Shown: positions 5,080-13,826 of the stretch, in pieces
Position numbering within the stretch: the first letter of the stretch is position 1
Layout of the letters: each line of letters starts with the position of its first letter
Source of the DNA: Flavobacteriales bacterium
Lineage (GTDB): Bacteria; Bacteroidota; Bacteroidia; Flavobacteriales; Flavobacteriaceae
Reading direction: 5' to 3'
NCBI GenBank assembly: GCA_004213645.1
Contig: SGZF01000010.1
Location: 1-33,717, forward strand
Length of the DNA stretch: 33,717 bases
Notes under the pieces: generated by a model
The model's input: only the letters and a program-made list of their open reading frames with translations
The model's database searches: none
Told to the model about the DNA's origin: nothing
Position numbers and translations under genes: made by a program

Positions 5080-5703
5080 TTAATTAGAGCAAGGGATAAA
5101 GACTATCTTCTTTGTTTTAAAAAAATCATTTGAAAAAAAATCTGATATTTCAAATATCTTGTAATTATTGAAATTCTTTAGTTCATCTTCCAAGTCTCCA
5201 CCTTTAAGAGAAATTATTCCATTAGGTATATTATTTTTTGATTTTAATTTAATATTCTTGTTAACCATTGAATAAAATCCATCCATTTTAGATACGGCTC
5301 TTGAAATTACAAAATCATACTTTAGGTTATGATTTTCAGCTCTTTCATTGACAGTTCTTACATTGGTTAGAGACAAGTGTTTAGATATATCTTCTACTAC
5401 TTTAATTTTTTTTGAAATGCTATCTAATAATGTAAAATTTACATTTGGAAAAATAATAGCCAGCGGTATACCTGGAAGCCCTCCTCCCGTTCCAACATCA
5501 AGAACATCTGTACCGTCAATGAATTTGTGGATCTTAGCAATTGAAAGAGAATGAAGGATATGATTTACATATAGATTATCAATATCTCTTCGAGATATAA
5601 GGTTAACTTTTGAATTCCAACTTTTATATAATTGGATTAAACTATTAAATTTTTTAAGCTGATCCTGAGATATCTTAGAAAAGTGTTTATCGAAATCAAT
5701 CAA
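5080..5703 (-). CDS. rsmG: 16S rRNA (guanine-527 N7) methyltransferase
   Basis: RsmG (GidB) uses SAM to methylate G527 of 16S rRNA. The 207-aa protein has the expected length, an N-terminal helical part (YKSWNSKVNLISRRD, about 26-40), and the SAM-binding loop LDVGTGGGLPGIPLA at about 68-82, followed by LLDS and the VNERAE stretch. Start choice is informative: the only in-frame start before an upstream stop is TTG at 5703 (or a non-standard ATT). That TTG shares TTGA with the aspC stop TGA. Coupled re-initiation from aspC is therefore the likely mode of expression. Confidence 0.95.
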   Translation of the reverse strand: MIDFDKHFSKISQDQLKKFNSLIQLYKSWNSKVNLISRRDIDNLYVNHILHSLSIAKIHKFIDGTDVLDVGTGGGLPGIPLAIIFPNVNFTLLDSISKKIKVVEDISKHLSLTNVRTVNERAENHNLKYDFVISRAVSKMDGFYSMVNKNIKLKSKNNIPNGIISLKGGDLEDELKNFNNYKIFEISDFFSNDFFKTKKIVFIPCSN

Positions 5704-6881
5704 GTTAATAGTTCTTTAATTCTACTAATAGCCTCTTTTATTTGTTCACGTGATGCGGAATATGAAATCCTTATACAATTGGCATATCCAAAGGCATCTC
5801 CAGGGACAGTTGCTACATGAGCTTTTTCAAGAATTAGCATTGATAAATCATTAGCATTATTAACTAAATGCCCATCAAAGGTCTTTCCAAAAAGCTGTGA
5901 GACTTCTGGAAAAATATAAAAAGCTCCAGACGGAGGCTGTTTGACATTAAAACCATTAATTTGATTTACTAGATCGATAATTAAATCTCGTCTGATTTTA
6001 AATTCATCGACCATATATTTTATTCTGTCTGGCGACTCTTCTAGTGCTGTAATAGCAGCTCTTTGGGCAATACAATTTGCACCACTGGTAATCTGGCCTT
6101 GCATTTTATTACATGCCTTAGCCAGAATCTTTGGAGCTCCAAGGTAACCTATTCTCCATCCCGTCATTGCAAAGGCTTTAGATATCCCATTTACTGTAAC
6201 TGTCCTTTCATACATTCCAGGCAGAGATGCAAAACTTACACTTTCAACTCCATAATTTATATGTTCATAAATTTCATCTGAAACAACTATTATCTTAGGA
6301 TACTTCATAAGCACTTTTGAAAATTCCAGATACTCCTCCTTTGTAAATACAGAACCACTAGGGTTATTAGGAGAGTTAAGCATTACCATTTTAGTTTTAT
6401 CAGTGATAGCTGATTCGAGCTGTGCTGATGTAACCTTGTAGTTAGCATTCTCATCAGGATGAACAAAAACTGGAATTCCATCTGCTAGAGAGACCATTGC
6501 ACTATAACTTACCCAATAAGGAGTAGGAATGACTACTTCATCACCTTTATTTATTAACGACATACACACATTTGCAATTGATTGTTTTGCTCCAGTAGAA
6601 ACTACAATCTGATCTGAATTATAATCTAAGTTATTGTCTCTTTTAAACTTTTTACAAATTGCTTTTTTTAAATCCAAGAATCCGTCAACTGGAGAATATT
6701 TATGATAATTTTCATTAATAGCATTTACAGCAGCCTCTTTAATATAATCAGGGATATCAAAGTCTGGTTCACCAGCACTTAAGGTAATAACATCAACTCC
6801 TTGATTTTTTAAATCATGGGCTTTTGCAGTCATTGCTACGGTTTGAGAAATTGGTAAAGAATTAATTTTATCTGACAACAT
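5700..6881 (-). CDS. aspC: PLP-dependent aminotransferase, aspartate/aromatic aminotransferase family (class I)
   Basis: This fold-type I aminotransferase of 393 aa resembles subgroup I-beta aspartate aminotransferases. Landmarks are LSAGEPDFDIP (34-44), YSPVDGF, STGAKQSIANV (95-105), NSPNNPSG (169-176), SDEIYEHI and the Schiff-base Lys235 in NGISKAFAMTGWRIGY. It sits directly after the chorismate branch genes (9 bases from the DAHPS/CM gene). It may therefore supply the final transamination of phenylpyruvate and 4-hydroxyphenylpyruvate as well as aspartate; this is inference from context, since substrate range cannot be read from the sequence. It is probably under the Phe/Tyr attenuator upstream of pheA. 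Confidence 0.9.
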   Translation of the reverse strand: MLSDKINSLPISQTVAMTAKAHDLKNQGVDVITLSAGEPDFDIPDYIKEAAVNAINENYHKYSPVDGFLDLKKAICKKFKRDNNLDYNSDQIVVSTGAKQSIANVCMSLINKGDEVVIPTPYWVSYSAMVSLADGIPVFVHPDENANYKVTSAQLESAITDKTKMVMLNSPNNPSGSVFTKEEYLEFSKVLMKYPKIIVVSDEIYEHINYGVESVSFASLPGMYERTVTVNGISKAFAMTGWRIGYLGAPKILAKACNKMQGQITSGANCIAQRAAITALEESPDRIKYMVDEFKIRRDLIIDLVNQINGFNVKQPPSGAFYIFPEVSQLFGKTFDGHLVNNANDLSMLILEKAHVATVPGDAFGYANCIRISYSASREQIKEAISRIKELLT

Positions 6882-6890
6882 TTTTATAAA

Positions 6891-7973
6891 TTATTTATTT
6901 AGTATTTTTTTTTGGTTATTGATTGACTCTTGGTGAATTGCTTTGAAAATTCTTAAAATAAATTCTTCACTTAAACCGTGGTCTTCGCCATCTAGAATCA
7001 TCTTACCTAAAATTTCATTCCATCTTTTATTTTGAAGAATAGCTACGTTATTTTCAGACTTTAGTTTTCCAATACCTTTAGCAACTTCCATTCTCTTTCC
7101 AAGAGTTGTCAATAAATTTTGATCAGCTGCATCAATTTGTGACCTTAAGTTATTAAGCTTATTCTGGTAATCTTCCCCTTGCGATGTTTTATCTCTAATT
7201 TTAAGGTCTCTCATTATTTCAATTAGTCTTTCTGGAGTTACTTGTTGCGCTGCATCACTCCAAGCATTATCTGGGTCCCAATGAGATTCAATCATTAATC
7301 CATCATAATTTAAGTCAAGTGAAGTTTGACTTAAATCAAAAATTAAGTCTCTTCTTCCTGCTATATGAGAGGGGTCACATATTAGTGGAATATCTGGGAA
7401 ATTATTTTGAAATTCAACTGCGATTTGCCATTCAGGATTATTCCTATATTTTGATTTATCATAAGATGAAAAACCTCTATGAATTACTCCAATATTTTTT
7501 ATATCAGCAGAATATATCCTCTCAACTCCACCCATCCATAATGACAAGTCAGGATTTACTGGGTTTTTAATTAAAACTATTTTATCTGTTCCTTTAAGTG
7601 CATCTGCAATTTCTTGAACAATAAATGGGCTAACAGTTGATCGAGCTCCTATCCATAATATATCTACATCATGCTCTAGTGCAAGATCAACATGAACGGA
7701 ATTAGCAACTTCTGTTGCTAACATGAGTCCTGTTTCTTTTTTAACTTTTTGAAGCCACTTCAAGCCAATAGCTCCAACCCCTTCAAACATTCCAGGTCTA
7801 GTTCTTGGCTTCCAAATTCCAGCACGATATGCAGTTACGTCACTATCTTTTAATTCATGTGCAATTTTTAAGACTTGTTCTTCAGTCTCAGCACTACATG
7901 GACCAGCTATAACAAGAGGGTGATCAAGATTCATTTGATCAAGCCAGTTACGATATTCTTTTTTATTTTCCAT
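6891..7973 (-). CDS. Bifunctional 3-deoxy-7-phosphoheptulonate synthase / chorismate mutase
   Basis: Two domains are fused. Residues 1 to about 260 form a type I-beta DAHP synthase: AGPCSAE (23-29), KPRTRPG (55-61), KNPVNPD (136-142) and CDPSHIAGRR (199-208) are the PEP/E4P and metal-site motifs. Residues about 270-355 form an AroQ-class chorismate mutase, with LRSQIDAADQNLL, GKRMEVAKGIGKLK and FKAIHQESI. The enzyme thus catalyses the first step of the shikimate pathway and the branch step to prephenate. This fusion order is known in Bacteroidota; the Prevotella nigrescens enzyme has been studied and shows allosteric communication between its halves. It lies 6 bases after tyrA and 9 before aspC, inside the aromatic operon. 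Confidence 0.96.
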   Translation of the reverse strand: MENKKEYRNWLDQMNLDHPLVIAGPCSAETEEQVLKIAHELKDSDVTAYRAGIWKPRTRPGMFEGVGAIGLKWLQKVKKETGLMLATEVANSVHVDLALEHDVDILWIGARSTVSPFIVQEIADALKGTDKIVLIKNPVNPDLSLWMGGVERIYSADIKNIGVIHRGFSSYDKSKYRNNPEWQIAVEFQNNFPDIPLICDPSHIAGRRDLIFDLSQTSLDLNYDGLMIESHWDPDNAWSDAAQQVTPERLIEIMRDLKIRDKTSQGEDYQNKLNNLRSQIDAADQNLLTTLGKRMEVAKGIGKLKSENNVAILQNKRWNEILGKMILDGEDHGLSEEFILRIFKAIHQESINNQKKILNK

Positions 7974-7979
7974 AATTAT

Positions 7980-8828
7980 TTAATTAATTCCTTTTAATAT
8001 TTTCTTAATTTCATTGATTCTCCTCATTTCATTATTAAGGGTCTTTTGATCACTGACCTCAATTAATTTTTTAAAATTATTAATATTTGAGATGTATTCA
8101 TCAAGAGACTCAATAATATTTTTTTTATTCTCAACAAAGATTGAAGACCACATTTCAGGTGAGCTCTTTGCTAGTCTTACCGTTGATTCAAATCCACTAC
8201 CTGCCATATTATATATAGCATGTTCATCATCTTCTTTGTCCATGACTGTCTTACCTAACATAAAAGATGAAATATGTGAAAGATGAGATACATAGGCAAT
8301 ATGTTTATCGTGTTCTTTTGAATTCATCGTTTTGATACTCATCCCTAATGATTTAATGATTTTTTTTGCATCTAATAATAAATTGGGATCAGTTTTTTCA
8401 GTATCACATAGAATCATAACCTTATCATTAAATAAGTCTTTTTTTGCTGAATTGGGTCCGGAAAACTCGGTTCCAGCAATTGGATGAGCAGCTAAATAAT
8501 TCTTTCTATTTTGATTATTCTCAACTGAATTACATATTTGAAATTTTGTAGAACCTAGATCAATTATTAGTGTCTTATCAGATGTTTTATTCAAGTAGTC
8601 AGAAAGTTGATTTTTTATTGAATCAACAGGTATTGCAAGAAATATAAAATCTAATTCAGATATAAATTCTACTTCAAATTTTACATCAATAATTTTATTT
8701 TTTAAACAATAACTAAATGATTTATAATCTATGTCATATCCATAGACAGTAATATTATCATATAAATCTTTCAATTTTAATCCAATCGATCCACCTATTA
8801 ATCCTAAACCTACTATACCAACTTTCAT
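7980..8828 (-). CDS. tyrA: Prephenate dehydrogenase
   Basis: TyrA oxidatively decarboxylates prephenate to 4-hydroxyphenylpyruvate using NAD(P)+, the committed step to tyrosine. The 282-aa protein starts with the dinucleotide-binding GIVGLGLIGGS (4-14) followed by an acidic YDID end of the second strand. HPIAGTEFSGP (115-125) supplies the conserved substrate-site His115. DKHIAYVSHLSH (174-185) is the helix that begins the C-terminal dimer domain. No ACT domain is attached, so feedback inhibition through such a domain is not expected. It overlaps the pheA stop by four bases (ATGA) and is followed after 6 bases by the DAHPS/CM gene. Confidence 0.95.
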   Translation of the reverse strand: MKVGIVGLGLIGGSIGLKLKDLYDNITVYGYDIDYKSFSYCLKNKIIDVKFEVEFISELDFIFLAIPVDSIKNQLSDYLNKTSDKTLIIDLGSTKFQICNSVENNQNRKNYLAAHPIAGTEFSGPNSAKKDLFNDKVMILCDTEKTDPNLLLDAKKIIKSLGMSIKTMNSKEHDKHIAYVSHLSHISSFMLGKTVMDKEDDEHAIYNMAGSGFESTVRLAKSSPEMWSSIFVENKKNIIESLDEYISNINNFKKLIEVSDQKTLNNEMRRINEIKKILKGIN

Positions 8829-9637
8829 AATTTTTGATCTTTATATTCTCCTAGTATTTTAAACTCTTGAGCCATTAATTCAATAATTTTGATTGCTTTT
8901 TGATAATTTTCAATTGAATCAAAAGTAATGTCAACAAAGAATGCATATTTACCAGGTGTTTTAATAACTGGTAGAGATTGAATTTTTGTAAGATTCAATT
9001 TACAATCACTCATCATATTTAATATTGATGCTAGACTCCCTCTTTTATGATCAAGGATAAACTTAAGAGCAGCTTTATTAAAATTTGATATATTTTTCTT
9101 ATTCTTTTCAACTATGACAAATCTTGTCATATTATTCTTAATTGTTTGAATGGAGGAATTCAAAATCTCTAAATCATATATCTCAGCAGCTTCTTTACTA
9201 GCTATTGCTCCAACTCCATAAATTTGATTTTCACTGATTTTTTTTGCAAACAAAGCTGTATCCACGCTTTCAATTAGCTTTATATTTGGATATTTAGTAA
9301 AAAATTTTGTGCACTGAAGTAATGCCATTGGATGAGAATGAACTTCACTTATGTTATTAATACTTTGACCAGAAAGACACATTAGATTATGATCTATACT
9401 AAGGCTATATTCACCAGTAATAGACAAATTATATTCATCAATTAAGGCATAATTAGGAAGTATTGAACCAGCTATAGAGTTCTCAATAGCCATCACACCA
9501 TAATCAGAATCTTCATCAATAACAGACTTAACAAGTTTATCGAAAGTTGAACACTCATTTAATTCGAATGAACTAAAGCACTCAGCTGTCACCTTATGGT
9601 GAAATGATCCTTTAATTCCTTGAATAGATATTTTCAT
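8825..9637 (-). CDS. pheA: Prephenate dehydratase with ACT domain
   Basis: PheA converts prephenate to phenylpyruvate on the route to phenylalanine. Residues 1 to about 178 are the dehydratase: MKISIQGIKGSFHH start, AIENSIAGSI (50-59), and the catalytic TRF at 171-173. Residues about 190-265 are a regulatory ACT domain with GSLASIL (200-206). The family Phe-binding motif ESRP appears here as QSLP (220-223), so Phe feedback may be altered; many homologues could share this and I cannot compare. Chorismate mutase is not fused here but to the DAHP synthase downstream. This is the first structural gene behind the attenuator, whose terminator ends 3 bases before the ATG. Confidence 0.95.
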   Translation of the reverse strand: MKISIQGIKGSFHHKVTAECFSSFELNECSTFDKLVKSVIDEDSDYGVMAIENSIAGSILPNYALIDEYNLSITGEYSLSIDHNLMCLSGQSINNISEVHSHPMALLQCTKFFTKYPNIKLIESVDTALFAKKISENQIYGVGAIASKEAAEIYDLEILNSSIQTIKNNMTRFVIVEKNKKNISNFNKAALKFILDHKRGSLASILNMMSDCKLNLTKIQSLPVIKTPGKYAFFVDITFDSIENYQKAIKIIELMAQEFKILGEYKDQKL

Positions 9638-9639
9638 AT

Positions 9640-9667
9640 AAAAAAAAAGTCCTGATTTGACAGGACT
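9640..9667 (-). terminator. Intrinsic terminator of the pheA attenuator
   Basis: On the minus strand a perfect 7-bp stem AGTCCTG / CAGGACT encloses the 6-base loop TCAAAT and runs straight into nine T residues. It sits between the leader peptide and pheA, with its U-tract almost touching the pheA ATG at 9637. That position is expected for an attenuator rather than for the end of a coding operon. It cannot work on the plus strand because there the A-run precedes the stem. Since the met operon upstream has no other visible terminator, it may also stop read-through from osmC. Confidence 0.9.
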
Positions 9668-9719
9668 ATAATATTTTAATTTTTTATTACATAGTTATCC
9701 TGCCTTCTGGTCTAAGAAG
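9661..9719 (-). promoter_or_regulatory. Phe/Tyr attenuator: pause hairpin and antiterminator arms
   Basis: Three competing pairings can be drawn on the minus-strand RNA. Arms 1:2: CTTCT (9719-9715) with AGAAG (9708-9704), loop of six. Arms 2:3, the antiterminator: CAGGA-TAA-CTAT (9702-9691) with ATAGTCCTG (9669-9661), nine base pairs with the three-base bulge being the leader stop codon. Arms 3:4: the terminator stem, which reuses AGTCCTG. A ribosome stalled on the Phe/Tyr codons would leave arm 2 free and permit the antiterminator. A ribosome reaching the stop codon would cover 9691-9702 and release the terminator. The pairings are seen directly; the mechanism is inferred from classical pheA/trp attenuators. 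Confidence 0.85.
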
Positions 9720-9754
9720 TAGAAATAATAGTAAAAATTAAAATTGTTGCTCAT
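9695..9754 (-). CDS. Phe/Tyr-rich leader peptide of the aromatic attenuator
   Basis: This short reading frame has 19 codons plus TAA and translates as MSNNFNFYYYFYFLDQKAG. Residues 5-13 contain four Phe and four Tyr codons, matching exactly the products made by the genes downstream (pheA, tyrA, DAHPS/CM, aspC). It is too short for standard gene calling. The ATG lies only six bases after a -7 promoter element, so the transcript probably begins at or within a few bases of the start codon. Translation would then be leaderless or nearly so. The stop codon lies inside the antiterminator arm. Phe and Tyr codons of both kinds are used (TTT, TTC, TAT, TAC). Function is inferred from composition, position and the RNA pairings. 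Confidence 0.87.
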   Translation of the reverse strand: MSNNFNFYYYFYFLDQKAG

Positions 9755-9760
9755 AATATA

Positions 9761-9791
9761 CAAAAGTATAATAGGTATCAATAAAAACAAA
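9761..9791 (-). promoter_or_regulatory. Promoter of the pheA attenuator and aromatic operon
   Basis: The minus strand has TTTG (9791-9788), a 19-base spacer, and TACTTTTG (9768-9761), a full match to the Bacteroidota promoter consensus TTTG / TAnnTTTG. It lies just after the osmC-like stop at 9801 and six bases before the leader peptide ATG. The same -7 octamer TACTTTTG is used for metK. Confidence 0.85.
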
Positions 9792-9800
9792 CTTTTTATC

Positions 9801-10229
9801 CTATTTTTTGACTAAAGACCCATTGAGATAAATTGAGTGCTCTATTAAAGTTGACTTCTCAAGGTTTTTAGAAACTGAACAATATTTGTCAAAGCTTAAA
9901 GCTGCAGCACGTATAATTTTATCACTTGGAATATTACCTTCAATATATAATTTAACATGTATTCTTTTCCAGGGTTTACCTGGTGTAGACTCTCTTTCCC
10001 CTTCTACCTCCATTTTATATGAATCTGGATCTAGTTTTTGTTTTTCTAATATTGATATAACATCTATACTACTACATCCAGCTACTCCCATTAATAATAA
10101 CTCCATTGGACTTGCCCCTTGGACATTATAATCTGGAGAATATTTTCGATCTAGTAAAACCTTGTGTCCATTTTCATTTGAAAGTTCAAATAAATACTTG
10201 TCATTAATTCTGTCTAAATAAATTGCCAT
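9801..10229 (-). CDS. OsmC/Ohr family protein
   Basis: This 142-aa protein of the OsmC superfamily has the pattern SPMELLLMGVAGCSSIDVISILEKQ (about 40-64), with the central helix cysteine at the usual peroxidatic position. The second family cysteine appears in FDKYCSVSKNLEKS near the C-terminus. Members reduce organic hydroperoxides or act on small thiol compounds. Its ATG shares one base with the metX stop (TAATG), so it is made as part of the metK-metY-metX operon. I infer a role tied to sulfur metabolism or thiol stress, but no substrate can be assigned. It is the last gene before the aromatic attenuator. Confidence 0.85.
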   Translation of the reverse strand: MAIYLDRINDKYLFELSNENGHKVLLDRKYSPDYNVQGASPMELLLMGVAGCSSIDVISILEKQKLDPDSYKMEVEGERESTPGKPWKRIHVKLYIEGNIPSDKIIRAAALSFDKYCSVSKNLEKSTLIEHSIYLNGSLVKK

Positions 10230-11197: not shown

Positions 11198-12469
11198 TTA
11201 CACAGATTTGATTGCATTTTTCAAGTCATCAATCAAGTCATCTGGATCTTCAAGACCAATACTCAATCGAACTAAATCAGAAGTTACTCCTGTTGACTTT
11301 TGTTGCTCATCGTTTAACTGTTGATGTGTAGTACTTGAGGGGTGAATAATTAAAGACTTAGAATCTCCAAAATTGGCAAGTAAAGAAAATATTTTAGTAC
11401 TATCAGTTAATTTTTTTGCAGAATCAAATCCACCTTTTAATCCAAATGTTACAATTCCACTTTGACCATCTTTCAAATATTTTTGAGATAAGTCATAATA
11501 TTTTGAGGACTTAAGACCAGGGTAATTGACCCAAGCAACTTGACTTTGTTTCTCTAACCACTCTGCAACCTTTAGTGCATTCTTAGAATGTTGTTTAATT
11601 CTAACGGATAAGGTCTCTAATCCCTGTATTGTTTGAAAACAATTGAAGGGACTTGGAGCACTTCCAAGATCTCTCAAACCTTCAATCCTAACCTTAGCAA
11701 TAAAGGCTGCTGGACCTAATACATCATGGTAAACTAACCCATGATATCCTGCGGATGGTTCTGTAAATTCATCAAATAATCCACTACTCCAGTCAAAATT
11801 ACCAGCATCAATTATTATTCCCCCAATTGAGGTTCCATTACCTGTAATATATTTAGTAGTAGAATGAATAACAATATCAGCACCGTAATTTATAGGTTTT
11901 AACAAATATGGAGTAGCGACCGTATTATCTACAATTAGAGGCAACTTAGCTTTTTTTGCAATTTTTGAAATTGATTCAATATCTAATACATCTAACTTTG
12001 GATTTCCCATACTTTCAATATAAATAGCTCTAGTATTTTCATTAATTGCCTCAGAAAAACTATCAACCTTGTTAGGATCAACAAAAGTTGTTGTTATTCC
12101 ATATCTAGGTAATGTTACATTAAACAAGTTATATGTCCCGCCATAAAGGCTATTTGAAGATACAATATGATCACCTGTCTTTAAAAGTGTCAATAATGTT
12201 GTAGCTAAAGCTGCTGAACCAGATGATGTAGCAACCGCAGCTATACCTCCCTCTAAAGATGCTAACCTTTGCTCAAGGACATCTGCTGTGGGATTATTAA
12301 GTCTTGTATATATATACCCAGGTTCAGCAAGTGAAAATAATTTTGCTGCATGGTCAGTATCATCAAAAACATATGATGTTGTTTGATATATTGGAACTGC
12401 TCTAGTTCCCTCTGTTTTTGTTGTGTTATGCCCAGCATGTAAGGCTAGGGTTTGATCATTTTGACTCAT
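11198..12469 (-). CDS. metY: O-acetylhomoserine sulfhydrylase (PLP enzyme)
   Basis: MetY condenses O-acetylhomoserine with sulfide to give homocysteine, bypassing cystathionine. The 423-aa length is typical of this class, being longer than cystathionine gamma-synthases (about 380-400). Landmarks are ALHAGH (9-14), TRLNNPTADVLEQRLASLEGG (55-75), SGSAAL (83-88), DNTVATPYL (181-189) and the Schiff-base Lys206 in HSTTKYITGNG. The start ATG overlaps the metK stop (ATGA) and metX follows after 3 bases, which supports the sulfhydrylation route over transsulfuration. Confidence 0.94.
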   Translation of the reverse strand: MSQNDQTLALHAGHNTTKTEGTRAVPIYQTTSYVFDDTDHAAKLFSLAEPGYIYTRLNNPTADVLEQRLASLEGGIAAVATSSGSAALATTLLTLLKTGDHIVSSNSLYGGTYNLFNVTLPRYGITTTFVDPNKVDSFSEAINENTRAIYIESMGNPKLDVLDIESISKIAKKAKLPLIVDNTVATPYLLKPINYGADIVIHSTTKYITGNGTSIGGIIIDAGNFDWSSGLFDEFTEPSAGYHGLVYHDVLGPAAFIAKVRIEGLRDLGSAPSPFNCFQTIQGLETLSVRIKQHSKNALKVAEWLEKQSQVAWVNYPGLKSSKYYDLSQKYLKDGQSGIVTFGLKGGFDSAKKLTDSTKIFSLLANFGDSKSLIIHPSSTTHQQLNDEQQKSTGVTSDLVRLSIGLEDPDDLIDDLKNAIKSV

Positions 12470-13719
12470 AATTTAAGTGTTTTAATTAATTGATTTACAT
12501 ACTCTAATTTTTCCCAAGGGAATAGTTCAACCTCAATTTTTTTAACTCCAGAGTATTTAGAATTAAATGTCTTGGTTTTTTTTTCAGATTTTCTACCCAT
12601 ATGACCATATGATGCAGTCTCAATATATATAGGGTCTCTAAGTTTGAATCTTGATTCTATCGAGTGAGGTTTTAAATCAAATATTTCGTTTACTATTTCC
12701 GATAGTTCATAATCTGAAGTTTTAACTTTAGACTTTCCACAAGTGTCTATATTGAGTGATACCGGTTCAGCAACTCCAATAGCATAGCCAAGTTGGATTA
12801 AAATTTCATCAGATACTCCAGCTTTTACAAGATTTTTTGAAATATGTCTAGCTGCATATGCTGCACTTCTGTCAACTTTACTTGGATCTTTTCCGCTAAA
12901 AGCACCTCCTCCATGAGCTCCTCTACCTCCGTATGTGTCAATTATAATTTTTCGACCAGTCATACCAGTATCACCATGTGGACCACCAATGACAAATTTT
13001 CCTGTTGGATTTACATAGAATTTAATATTATCATTAAATAATTTTTGAATTTCAGGTGAATATGTATCTCTTACTATTGGGATTAAAATTTCAATTATAT
13101 CTTCCCTAATTTTATTTAACATTTTCTCATCATTAATATCGAATTCATCATGTTGAGTTGAAACAACAATTGTATCTATTCTTAACGGCATATCATTATC
13201 GTCATACTCAATAGTTACCTGAGATTTTGAATCTGGCCTTAAATAAGGAATTTCCTTAGACCTTCTAAGTTTTGAAAGCTCCAGTAAAAGTCTATTTGCA
13301 ATGTCCAAAGTTAGAGGAATTGAATTTTCAGTTTCATTACATGCATAACCAAACATTATTCCTTGATCACCCGCTCCTTGTTCTTCTTTTATTTTTCTTT
13401 CTACTCCTCTAAGAATGTCATCTGATTGCTCATGAATTAAAGACATTACAGCACATGATTCTCCAGAAAACTTATATAGATCATTGTTATAACCAATATC
13501 CTTTATTACATTTCTAGCTATATCTTGAACATCTATATAAGTATTACTTGTTACTTCCCCAGATAGTATAACTTGACCAGTTGTTACAAGAGTTTCGCAA
13601 GCTACTTTACTATTAGGGTCAAATGCTAGAAAGTTATCTAGTATACCATCACTAATTTGATCTGATACTTTATCTGGATGTCCTTCACTAACTGATTCGG
13701 ACGTAAATAAATACGACAT
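12466..13719 (-). CDS. metK: S-adenosylmethionine synthetase
   Basis: MetK makes SAM from methionine and ATP, releasing PPi and Pi. The 417-aa protein contains ESVSEGHPDKVSDQISD (8-24) with the ATP-site His, the signature GAGDQGIMFGYA, the flexible-loop region, GPHGDTGMTGRKII and the phosphate-binding GGGAFSGKDPSKVDRSAAY. All three tandem MetK domains appear complete. It heads the metK-metY-metX-osmC operon and has a SAM-II type aptamer in its 5' leader, so its product probably represses its own synthesis. The PPi it releases is a possible substrate for the membrane pyrophosphatase encoded nearby, though that is a general link. Confidence 0.97.
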   Translation of the reverse strand: MSYLFTSESVSEGHPDKVSDQISDGILDNFLAFDPNSKVACETLVTTGQVILSGEVTSNTYIDVQDIARNVIKDIGYNNDLYKFSGESCAVMSLIHEQSDDILRGVERKIKEEQGAGDQGIMFGYACNETENSIPLTLDIANRLLLELSKLRRSKEIPYLRPDSKSQVTIEYDDNDMPLRIDTIVVSTQHDEFDINDEKMLNKIREDIIEILIPIVRDTYSPEIQKLFNDNIKFYVNPTGKFVIGGPHGDTGMTGRKIIIDTYGGRGAHGGGAFSGKDPSKVDRSAAYAARHISKNLVKAGVSDEILIQLGYAIGVAEPVSLNIDTCGKSKVKTSDYELSEIVNEIFDLKPHSIESRFKLRDPIYIETASYGHMGRKSEKKTKTFNSKYSGVKKIEVELFPWEKLEYVNQLIKTLKL

Positions 13720-13755: not shown

Positions 13756-13767
13756 GTAAAAAGAATT

Positions 13768-13822
13768 ACTGCTTTAGCAATTTTTTTTAGAGGTTGCAAT
13801 CAGTCAAATCCTTCCTCTGTTA
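13768..13822 (-). promoter_or_regulatory. SAM-II type riboswitch aptamer
   Basis: The minus strand carries stem P1 AGAGG (13818-13814) / CCTCT (13793-13789), the conserved loop GATTTGACTGATTGCAA, an A-rich linker, and GCTAAAGCAGT. P2 of the pseudoknot can form between ACTG (13804-13801) and CAGT (13771-13768). The order and the strings GATTTGAC, ATTGCAA and GCTAAA match the SAM-II class as I know it, including the PDB 2QWY aptamer. SAM-II is known in Proteobacteria and Bacteroidota upstream of methionine genes. The 5' loop is about three bases longer than in that example. The gene it controls, metK, makes the ligand. Confidence 0.83.
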
Positions 13823-13826
13823 GATA

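Follow-up and report, generated by a model that had tools for sequence, protein, structure and literature searches.

The window, by which we mean the entire 33,717-nt stretch of Flavobacteriales DNA analysed here, belongs to a genome assembly of 1.04 Mb that is 78% complete. On its minus strand lies a run of genes for aromatic amino acid synthesis comprising pheA, tyrA, a fused DAHP synthase/chorismate mutase gene (DAHPS/CM) and an aminotransferase gene, followed by rsmG (NCBIfam match above the cut-off). The first four genes are probably co-transcribed. An OsmC-like gene on the same strand precedes the promoter of this run, its stop codon ending at 9801. Coordinates of the gene run and of the regulatory element in front of it are collected in Table 1.

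Table 1. Features of the pheA leader region and the genes downstream, with window coordinates.
Feature	Coordinates	Strand	Basis
-33 promoter element TTTG	9788..9791	-	sequence; 19 nt 5' of the -7 element
-7 promoter element TACTTTTG (consensus TANNTTTG)	9761..9768	-	sequence
Leader peptide ORF MSNNFNFYYYFYFLDQKAG	9695..9754	-	sequence and genus conservation
Candidate 1:2 hairpin (9728-9723 with 9700-9695; 9719-9715 with 9708-9704)	9695..9728	-	fold, weak
Strand 2, predicted antiterminator 5' arm	9685..9704	-	fold; complement of strand 3 conserved, co-varying
Strand 3, predicted antiterminator 3' arm, overlaps terminator 5' arm	9659..9673	-	fold
Predicted intrinsic terminator (as sequence), 7-bp stem 9667-9661/9654-9648 and T tract to 9640	9640..9667	-	fold; covariation
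pheA, prephenate dehydratase	8825..9637	-	NCBIfam NF008865, E 1.2e-57, 195 bits; below curated cut-off of 219
tyrA, prephenate dehydrogenase	7980..8828	-	NCBIfam NF006307, 350 bits; above cut-off of 295
DAHP synthase/chorismate mutase fusion	6891..7973	-	NCBIfam NF009239, E 9.6e-54; below cut-off
Aspartate/aromatic-type aminotransferase	5700..6881	-	NCBIfam NF004769 (aspartate transaminase), E 5.4e-118; below cut-off

Elsewhere in the window, a SAM-II riboswitch (13764-13823, minus strand, 79.9 bits against a gathering score of 44) is located just 5' of the ORF 12466-13719, which heads a gene run containing metX (NCBIfam match below the cut-off). We take this ORF to be S-adenosylmethionine-synthetase-like and another ORF of the same run to be sulfhydrylase-like. 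In the pheA matches of three relatives (loci L021, L022 and L023 of genomes G017, G015 and G003) we noticed one internal stop codon each, possibly due to an edge or end effect.

Leader frame, promoter and alternative RNA structures

The leader frame starts with an ATG at 9754-9752 and ends with a TAA at 9697-9695. It comprises 19 codons, eight of which encode Phe or Tyr. This frame had been pointed out in the initial annotation of the region and is present in the sequence as described there. The statement that its dominant amino acids are those made by the downstream genes also holds, given the eight Phe/Tyr codons and the NCBIfam assignment of pheA and tyrA in the operon. The same is true of the consensus promoter, since both elements and their 19-nt separation agree with the consensus TTTG/TANNTTTG given in PMC6847099.

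Applying the start-site offset of F. johnsoniae, in which the G of the -7 element is at position -5 (PMC6847099), we predict that transcription starts at 9756, two bases ahead of the leader ATG (ATG at +3). Within the genus, the -7 element was found in all 23 loci at a distance of 6-9 nt from the ATG (23/23), corresponding to a 5' UTR of 2-5 nt by the same offset. Loci from other genera have gaps of mostly 8-23 nt. Overall, a recognisable -7 element is present in 147 out of 161 loci. The near-leaderless layout is a minority layout, because in F. johnsoniae 87% of the transcripts for which a promoter is probable carry a leader of more than 10 nt (PMC6847099).

Two alternative structures are predicted for the RNA that follows. 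They are mutually exclusive according to fold and covariation, as strand 3 is common to both. The antiterminator folds with 15 base pairs and a single 5-nt bulge covering two of the three stop-codon bases (-12.5 kcal/mol, z = -3.9; none of 200 shuffled sequences was as good). An antiterminator had been described for this position before, and it is indeed found in the fold; the nine pairs with the stop codon as the bulge, however, represent another register. The terminator (AGTCCTG-TCAAAT-CAGGACT, 9667-9648, with the T tract T9648-T9640) has a z-score of -3.6, and one out of 200 shuffles was as good. Its 7-bp stem and its nine Ts were correctly noted in the initial annotation, but the gap between T tract and pheA amounts to two bases instead of three, because the pheA ATG starts at 9637. 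The 1:2 hairpin claimed for the leader exists as well, but it is weak (z = -0.99), with 31 of 200 shuffles folding equally well.

Conservation, covariation and spacing in relatives

The genus set consisted of 25 genomes, 23 of which gave a pheA match. All 23 loci contain a Phe/Tyr-rich leader of 19-23 codons together with a terminator. Seven columns of the leader are occupied by Phe or Tyr in every one of the 23 loci; Phe and Tyr exchange for each other in five of these columns, and the codons vary. For the family we found pheA matches in 178 of 199 genomes and read upstream of pheA in 148 genomes from other genera, a set that excludes the 28 weakest of the 178. Leader and terminator are complete in 143 of these 148 loci (141 by script; L243 and L247 by eye), one leader is interrupted by a contig end (L161), and no leader element was present at pheA in the remaining four (L150, L199, L228, L237). 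The element was also detected by script in all of the best 80 loci out of 260 matches, of which ten repeat genus genomes and the others are mostly Flavobacterium.

Inspection by eye revealed the element in six of ten loci from the rest of the order outside the family, a sample that omits further, often weak, matches. It is absent from the other four (L272 and L276-278), three of which come from 0.6-Mb genomes. Beyond the order, it lies directly 5' of pheA in 25 of 31 genomes (by eye; mostly genomes with the better PheA matches), namely in 21 of 24 from the same class (including L302, which was picked by the covariance model) and in four of seven from other classes; in six of the 31 it was missing from the position directly before pheA. 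As a negative control we considered 68 terminator-like sites elsewhere in 20 Flavobacterium loci, and only six of them have a preceding ORF with at least six Phe/Tyr codons. The occurrence of a Phe/Tyr leader with a terminator in front of pheA is far beyond chance.

Two Phe/Tyr leader-plus-terminator units in tandem precede pheA in three relatives outside the order: L320 (G392, upstream of 1501; script and eye) as well as L328 and L334 (G508 and G424; by eye), the latter two genomes being both of those read in their family. Further tandem leaders were not found in 291 loci scanned by script, a scan that undercounts, as two of the three known cases escaped it. A range search with the covariance model R1 (E <= 0.01) matched 88 of the 395 genomes, which should not be read as the number of attenuators. 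For 11 genomes that belong to the class but not to the order, the R1 match lies directly before pheA. Of 20 further matches that we inspected, 16 looked like ordinary terminators, and the remaining four represented leader peptides (Thr/Ile in two cases, Ile in one, and Phe/Tyr before a DAHP-synthase-like ORF in one). For this reason weak R1 matches were dropped as evidence for attenuators.

The terminator stem was analyzed in 65 aligned leaders. Paired bases make up 96.8% of the cells of the stem, and in six of the nine pairs both partners have changed. Not one of five measures was reached by any of 500 shuffles, and the signal is lost on sliding. Six T columns 3' of the stem are invariant in all 65 leaders, where the terminator finder demanded five Ts in eight positions. 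In the 139 family loci used for the pairing tests, strand 3 falls into the classes GTCTCG (79 loci), GTCCCG (33), GTCCTG (17), GTTCCG (4) and rarer others, and in most loci strand 2 and strand 4 are altered to match the respective class. The pairing sets omit ten of 171 loci, seven of them unparsed by the script and three without a recognised core.

Strand 2 was located by its complementarity to strand 3 in all tests except one, and we therefore employed two controls. When strand 2 was searched again with strand 3 swapped between classes, the mean match was 5.55 of 6 for the own strand 3 and 4.69 for those of other classes. Perfect matches were obtained in 62 of 139 loci with the own strand and in 1.75% of the swaps, and matches of at least 5.5 in 108 of 139 loci compared to 19%. 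The second control is blind to pairing and uses only the distance from the end of the Phe/Tyr run. In 94 of 139 loci a near-perfect complement of strand 3 lies 10 nt (31 loci) or 11 nt (63 loci) past this point, and no other offset between -12 and +39 has one in more than three loci. On average, the own strand 3 exceeds the swapped one at +11 (4.06 vs 3.39), but not at +10 (2.69 vs 2.77). A full-length alignment test of the 2:3 pairing was set aside, because MAFFT places strand 2 of the GTCTCG class one base off from that of the other classes. The initial annotation had proposed to look in related genomes for conserved Phe/Tyr-rich frames and for covariation in both pairings; the former are found in the genus and family loci counted above, and the latter appears as double changes in the 3:4 stem and as changes of strand 2 along with strand 3.

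The codon content was determined for the same 139 leaders. Phe and Tyr account for 38.8% of the codons in the leader frame, which was chosen as the ORF richest in Phe/Tyr, compared to 12.0% and 17.9% in the two shifted frames. The ten permissive codons nearest to strand 2, at which a stalled ribosome would not cover it, consist of 46% Phe, 26% Tyr, 10% Asn and 5% Trp, and the codons after this stretch contain 1.9% Phe, 5.6% Tyr and 0.1% Trp, with the 9-nt edge of the stretch having been fixed after the spacing had been seen. Both Phe and Tyr are present in all 139 leaders, and 85 contain at least one Trp. In one relative (G458), a Phe/Tyr leader (MLITAAIYFTFFYFYF...) is found just before a DAHP-synthase-like ORF (identity by eye); pheA lies on the same strand, approximately 3.6 kb further downstream. 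The sequence directly before pheA is presumably the end of an aroA-like frame in this genome. DAHP synthase catalyzes the first step towards all three aromatic amino acids.

Proposed mechanism and alternative explanations

In order to follow the effect of a translating ribosome on the two structures, we modeled it as a 30-nt block whose size and edges were assumed. As long as strand 4 has not yet been made, the mean probability of 2:3 pairing is 0.91 when the block sits at the last Phe/Tyr codon compatible with a free strand 2, and 0.01 when it sits at the stop codon. The probability is higher at the former position in 139 of 139 loci, the stall half of this comparison being partly built in, as the chosen codon leaves strand 2 unblocked by definition. 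For the window, the probability stays at 0.99 through codon 14, falls to 0.32 at codon 15, and is zero at codon 16 and beyond. The spacing of 10-11 nt between the Phe/Tyr run and strand 2 matches the distance required for strand 2 to remain free while a ribosome is stalled at the last Phe/Tyr codon. Without a ribosome the mean is 0.62 (n = 139; 0.70 for the window and 0.99 for L015). Since this still favours 2:3 pairing, the 1:2 protector is weak or absent in many loci, and untranslated RNA may terminate less cleanly than in the textbook trp case.

Based on these results we propose that the element is a ribosome-mediated transcription attenuator responding to the supply of Phe and Tyr, with a probability of roughly 0.92. 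Ribosome-mediated attenuation had been suggested in the initial annotation, and the conservation, the covariation, the spacing and the placement before DAHP synthase in one relative argue strongly in its favour. Transcription would begin about two bases upstream of the leader ATG, with a ribosome following RNA polymerase and translating the Phe/Tyr leader. When charged tRNA-Phe or tRNA-Tyr is scarce, the ribosome would stall in the Phe/Tyr run with its leading edge just short of strand 2. Strands 2 and 3 would then pair, the terminator would be blocked, and the pheA-tyrA-DAHPS/CM-aminotransferase run would be transcribed. With both amino acids plentiful, the ribosome would reach the stop codon and cover strand 2, which would allow 3:4 pairing and end transcription just before pheA. 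We infer the behaviour of the ribosome, the termination and the response to the amino acids from the arrangement of these elements in the sequence.

A combined sensor of Phe and Tyr is likely, because both amino acids occur in all leaders, the gene run includes a DAHP synthase, and the leader in G458 is placed before such a gene; sensing of Trp is possible as well. One could also regard the element as an attenuator for Phe only, in which the Tyr codons are incidental, since TTY and TAY are one base apart in T-rich DNA. Phe is indeed the more frequent of the two in the sensing stretch, and the enterobacterial pheA leader is Phe-rich. The occurrence of both amino acids without exception and the presence of tyrA in the operon, however, make this reading unlikely. 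A different signal would be read if the leader peptide stalled the ribosome in response to free Phe or Tyr, as TnaC does with Trp, and not by way of charged tRNA. Peptides rich in Phe and Tyr are bulky and hydrophobic, and a short leader with a terminator would be compatible with such a sensor. Against it, the peptide is poorly conserved beyond its Phe/Tyr positions, with the two residues swapped and codons gained or lost within the genus, and leader sequences differ widely across families. In the geometry of the block folds, stalling caused by an abundant amino acid would moreover raise expression, which is the wrong sign for feedback, and we consider such a sensor very improbable.

Control at the level of translation, with a hairpin that hides the pheA start and is opened by the leader ribosome without any termination, would be in line with the stem in the genus, which ends 10 nt before pheA. 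The distance between stem and pheA varies from about 10 to over 100 nt among the loci, however, and the invariant T columns point to termination, so that we give this possibility very little weight. An RNA that binds a metabolite or tRNA (riboswitch or T-box) and contains a Phe/Tyr-rich frame by chance appears extremely improbable. A structured, conserved 5' element with a terminator would be expected for it as well, and the available text of PMC9723704 lists only a structured 5' element. Yet in scans of the window and 34 related loci no Rfam family, including T-box and RF01692, matched the leader at gathering score, and conservation resides in the codons of the right amino acids and not in a fixed fold. 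The preferred reading as a Phe/Tyr attenuator provides a concrete example of leader-peptide attenuation, testable and widely conserved, from a phylum that starts translation without Shine-Dalgarno pairing. A leader ATG at or near the 5' terminus would bear on the coupling of ribosome and polymerase in Bacteroidota. The element points to a missing Rfam-style family, and it offers a readout of the Phe/Tyr status for marine flavobacteria, which are mainly represented by single-cell and metagenome assemblies.

Other leaders and comparison with known systems

Leaders in front of other amino acid genes were observed as well. Within the genus, trpE has its own leader, which contains two to three Trp codons and is accompanied by a terminator, in each of the 17 readable loci out of 20 (L362-L379); in the genome of the window (L363, G000:C12) it reads MKLIKTTWWWNNEI. 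By the same offset rule this Trp leader starts at approximately +1 to +2 (by eye in L362, L363 and L365), and in three loci scanned it has no match to Rfam Bacteroid-trp at gathering score. Two loci from another family of the class (L341, L342) contain a Thr/Ile-rich leader (MIFNTSIITTIIITT...) with a terminator before an aspartokinase-like ORF (identity by eye). Enterobacterial thrL is similar in content. A further locus (L356) has an Ile-rich leader (MKNLNNIIITITIIAIQQ) and a terminator before a threonine-dehydratase-like ORF (identity by eye). A His leader could not serve as a control for lack of material, as hisG (TIGR00070) was detected in just one of the 25 genus genomes (G000-G024), most of which are incomplete; this is a hint of histidine auxotrophy in the genus.

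Tentatively, the pheA element may be an ancient aromatic sensor of the entire phylum that responds to Phe, Tyr and, in many lineages, Trp, acts on leaderless or near-leaderless mRNAs without Shine-Dalgarno signals, occurs in tandem in some genomes, and is part of a wider set of Trp, Thr/Ile and Ile leaders; we hold this to be possible rather than probable. If it were true, leader-peptide attenuation would be a standard control of amino acid operons in Bacteroidota, and a single leader would read the supply of three amino acids, all of them end products that depend on the DAHP synthase of the same operon.

The closest known system is found in enterobacteria, where pheA is preceded by a short leader with aromatic codons, alternative hairpins and a terminator. 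The corresponding Rfam family, Phe_leader (RF01859), has all three of these features in common with the window element. A comparison with Rfam had been suggested by the initial annotation; it gave no family at gathering score and, at a lax threshold (window positions 9600-9850), a weak alignment to RF01859 over the whole length of the model (E = 0.0042 for the 251-base search). With 28.8 bits against a gathering score of 55, membership in this family was rejected. Unlike RF01859, the window leader combines Phe and Tyr codons (often with one Trp in relatives) and is followed by tyrA and DAHP synthase genes, and it has a different type of promoter and an almost leaderless frame. Rfam matches away from the leader comprise the SAM-II riboswitch and a tRNA elsewhere in the window, as well as Flavo-1 RNA (RF01705) in four relatives, approximately 1.3 kb downstream of pheA in L062, L065 and L100 and approximately 1.3 kb upstream in L117. 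The Bacteroid-trp RNA, by comparison, lies before trp genes. Both this RNA, as far as its description is available (RF01692, PMC2864571), and the pheA leader are cis-regulatory RNAs of Bacteroidetes; RF01692 gave no gathering-score match here.

The kind of attenuator is thus known, and the element itself has already been glimpsed before pheA in one genus. In F. psychrophilum, a conserved 5' element without Rfam match was reported in 2021 upstream of pheA, with occurrences in other Flavobacteriaceae genera (PMC9723704), and the same study separately mentions leader-peptide attenuation upstream of amino acid operons. The position is the same as in the window; the available part of that account is without a leader sequence, Phe/Tyr specificity, alternative pairing or a range beyond the family. 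The suggestion that the system may be undescribed therefore has to be narrowed, although our literature search, supplements excluded, found no account of a Phe/Tyr leader of pheA in Bacteroidota. Attenuation-like sORFs have been mentioned for B. thetaiotaomicron (PMC7366714). Similar short frames before aromatic genes are known from other organisms, namely candidate uORFs with Phe and Tyr before shikimate genes, from a study of five genomes outside Bacteroidota (PMC6429828), and uORFC-13-1 with Phe before aroF in Acholeplasma and unassigned environmental sequences (PMC8632094), according to the portions of these reports at hand. In 2010, the accessible text of PMC2965389 stated that no leader-peptide system had been known outside Proteobacteria and Actinobacteria before its own case in Firmicutes. 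A precedent for a leaderless attenuator is trpL of Sinorhizobium meliloti, with a transcript that starts at the leader ATG (PMC7298713), but it responds to Trp and belongs to another phylum. The specificity for Phe and Tyr, the ribosome spacing, the covariation of three strands and the phylum-wide range of the pheA leader did not turn up in our literature search.
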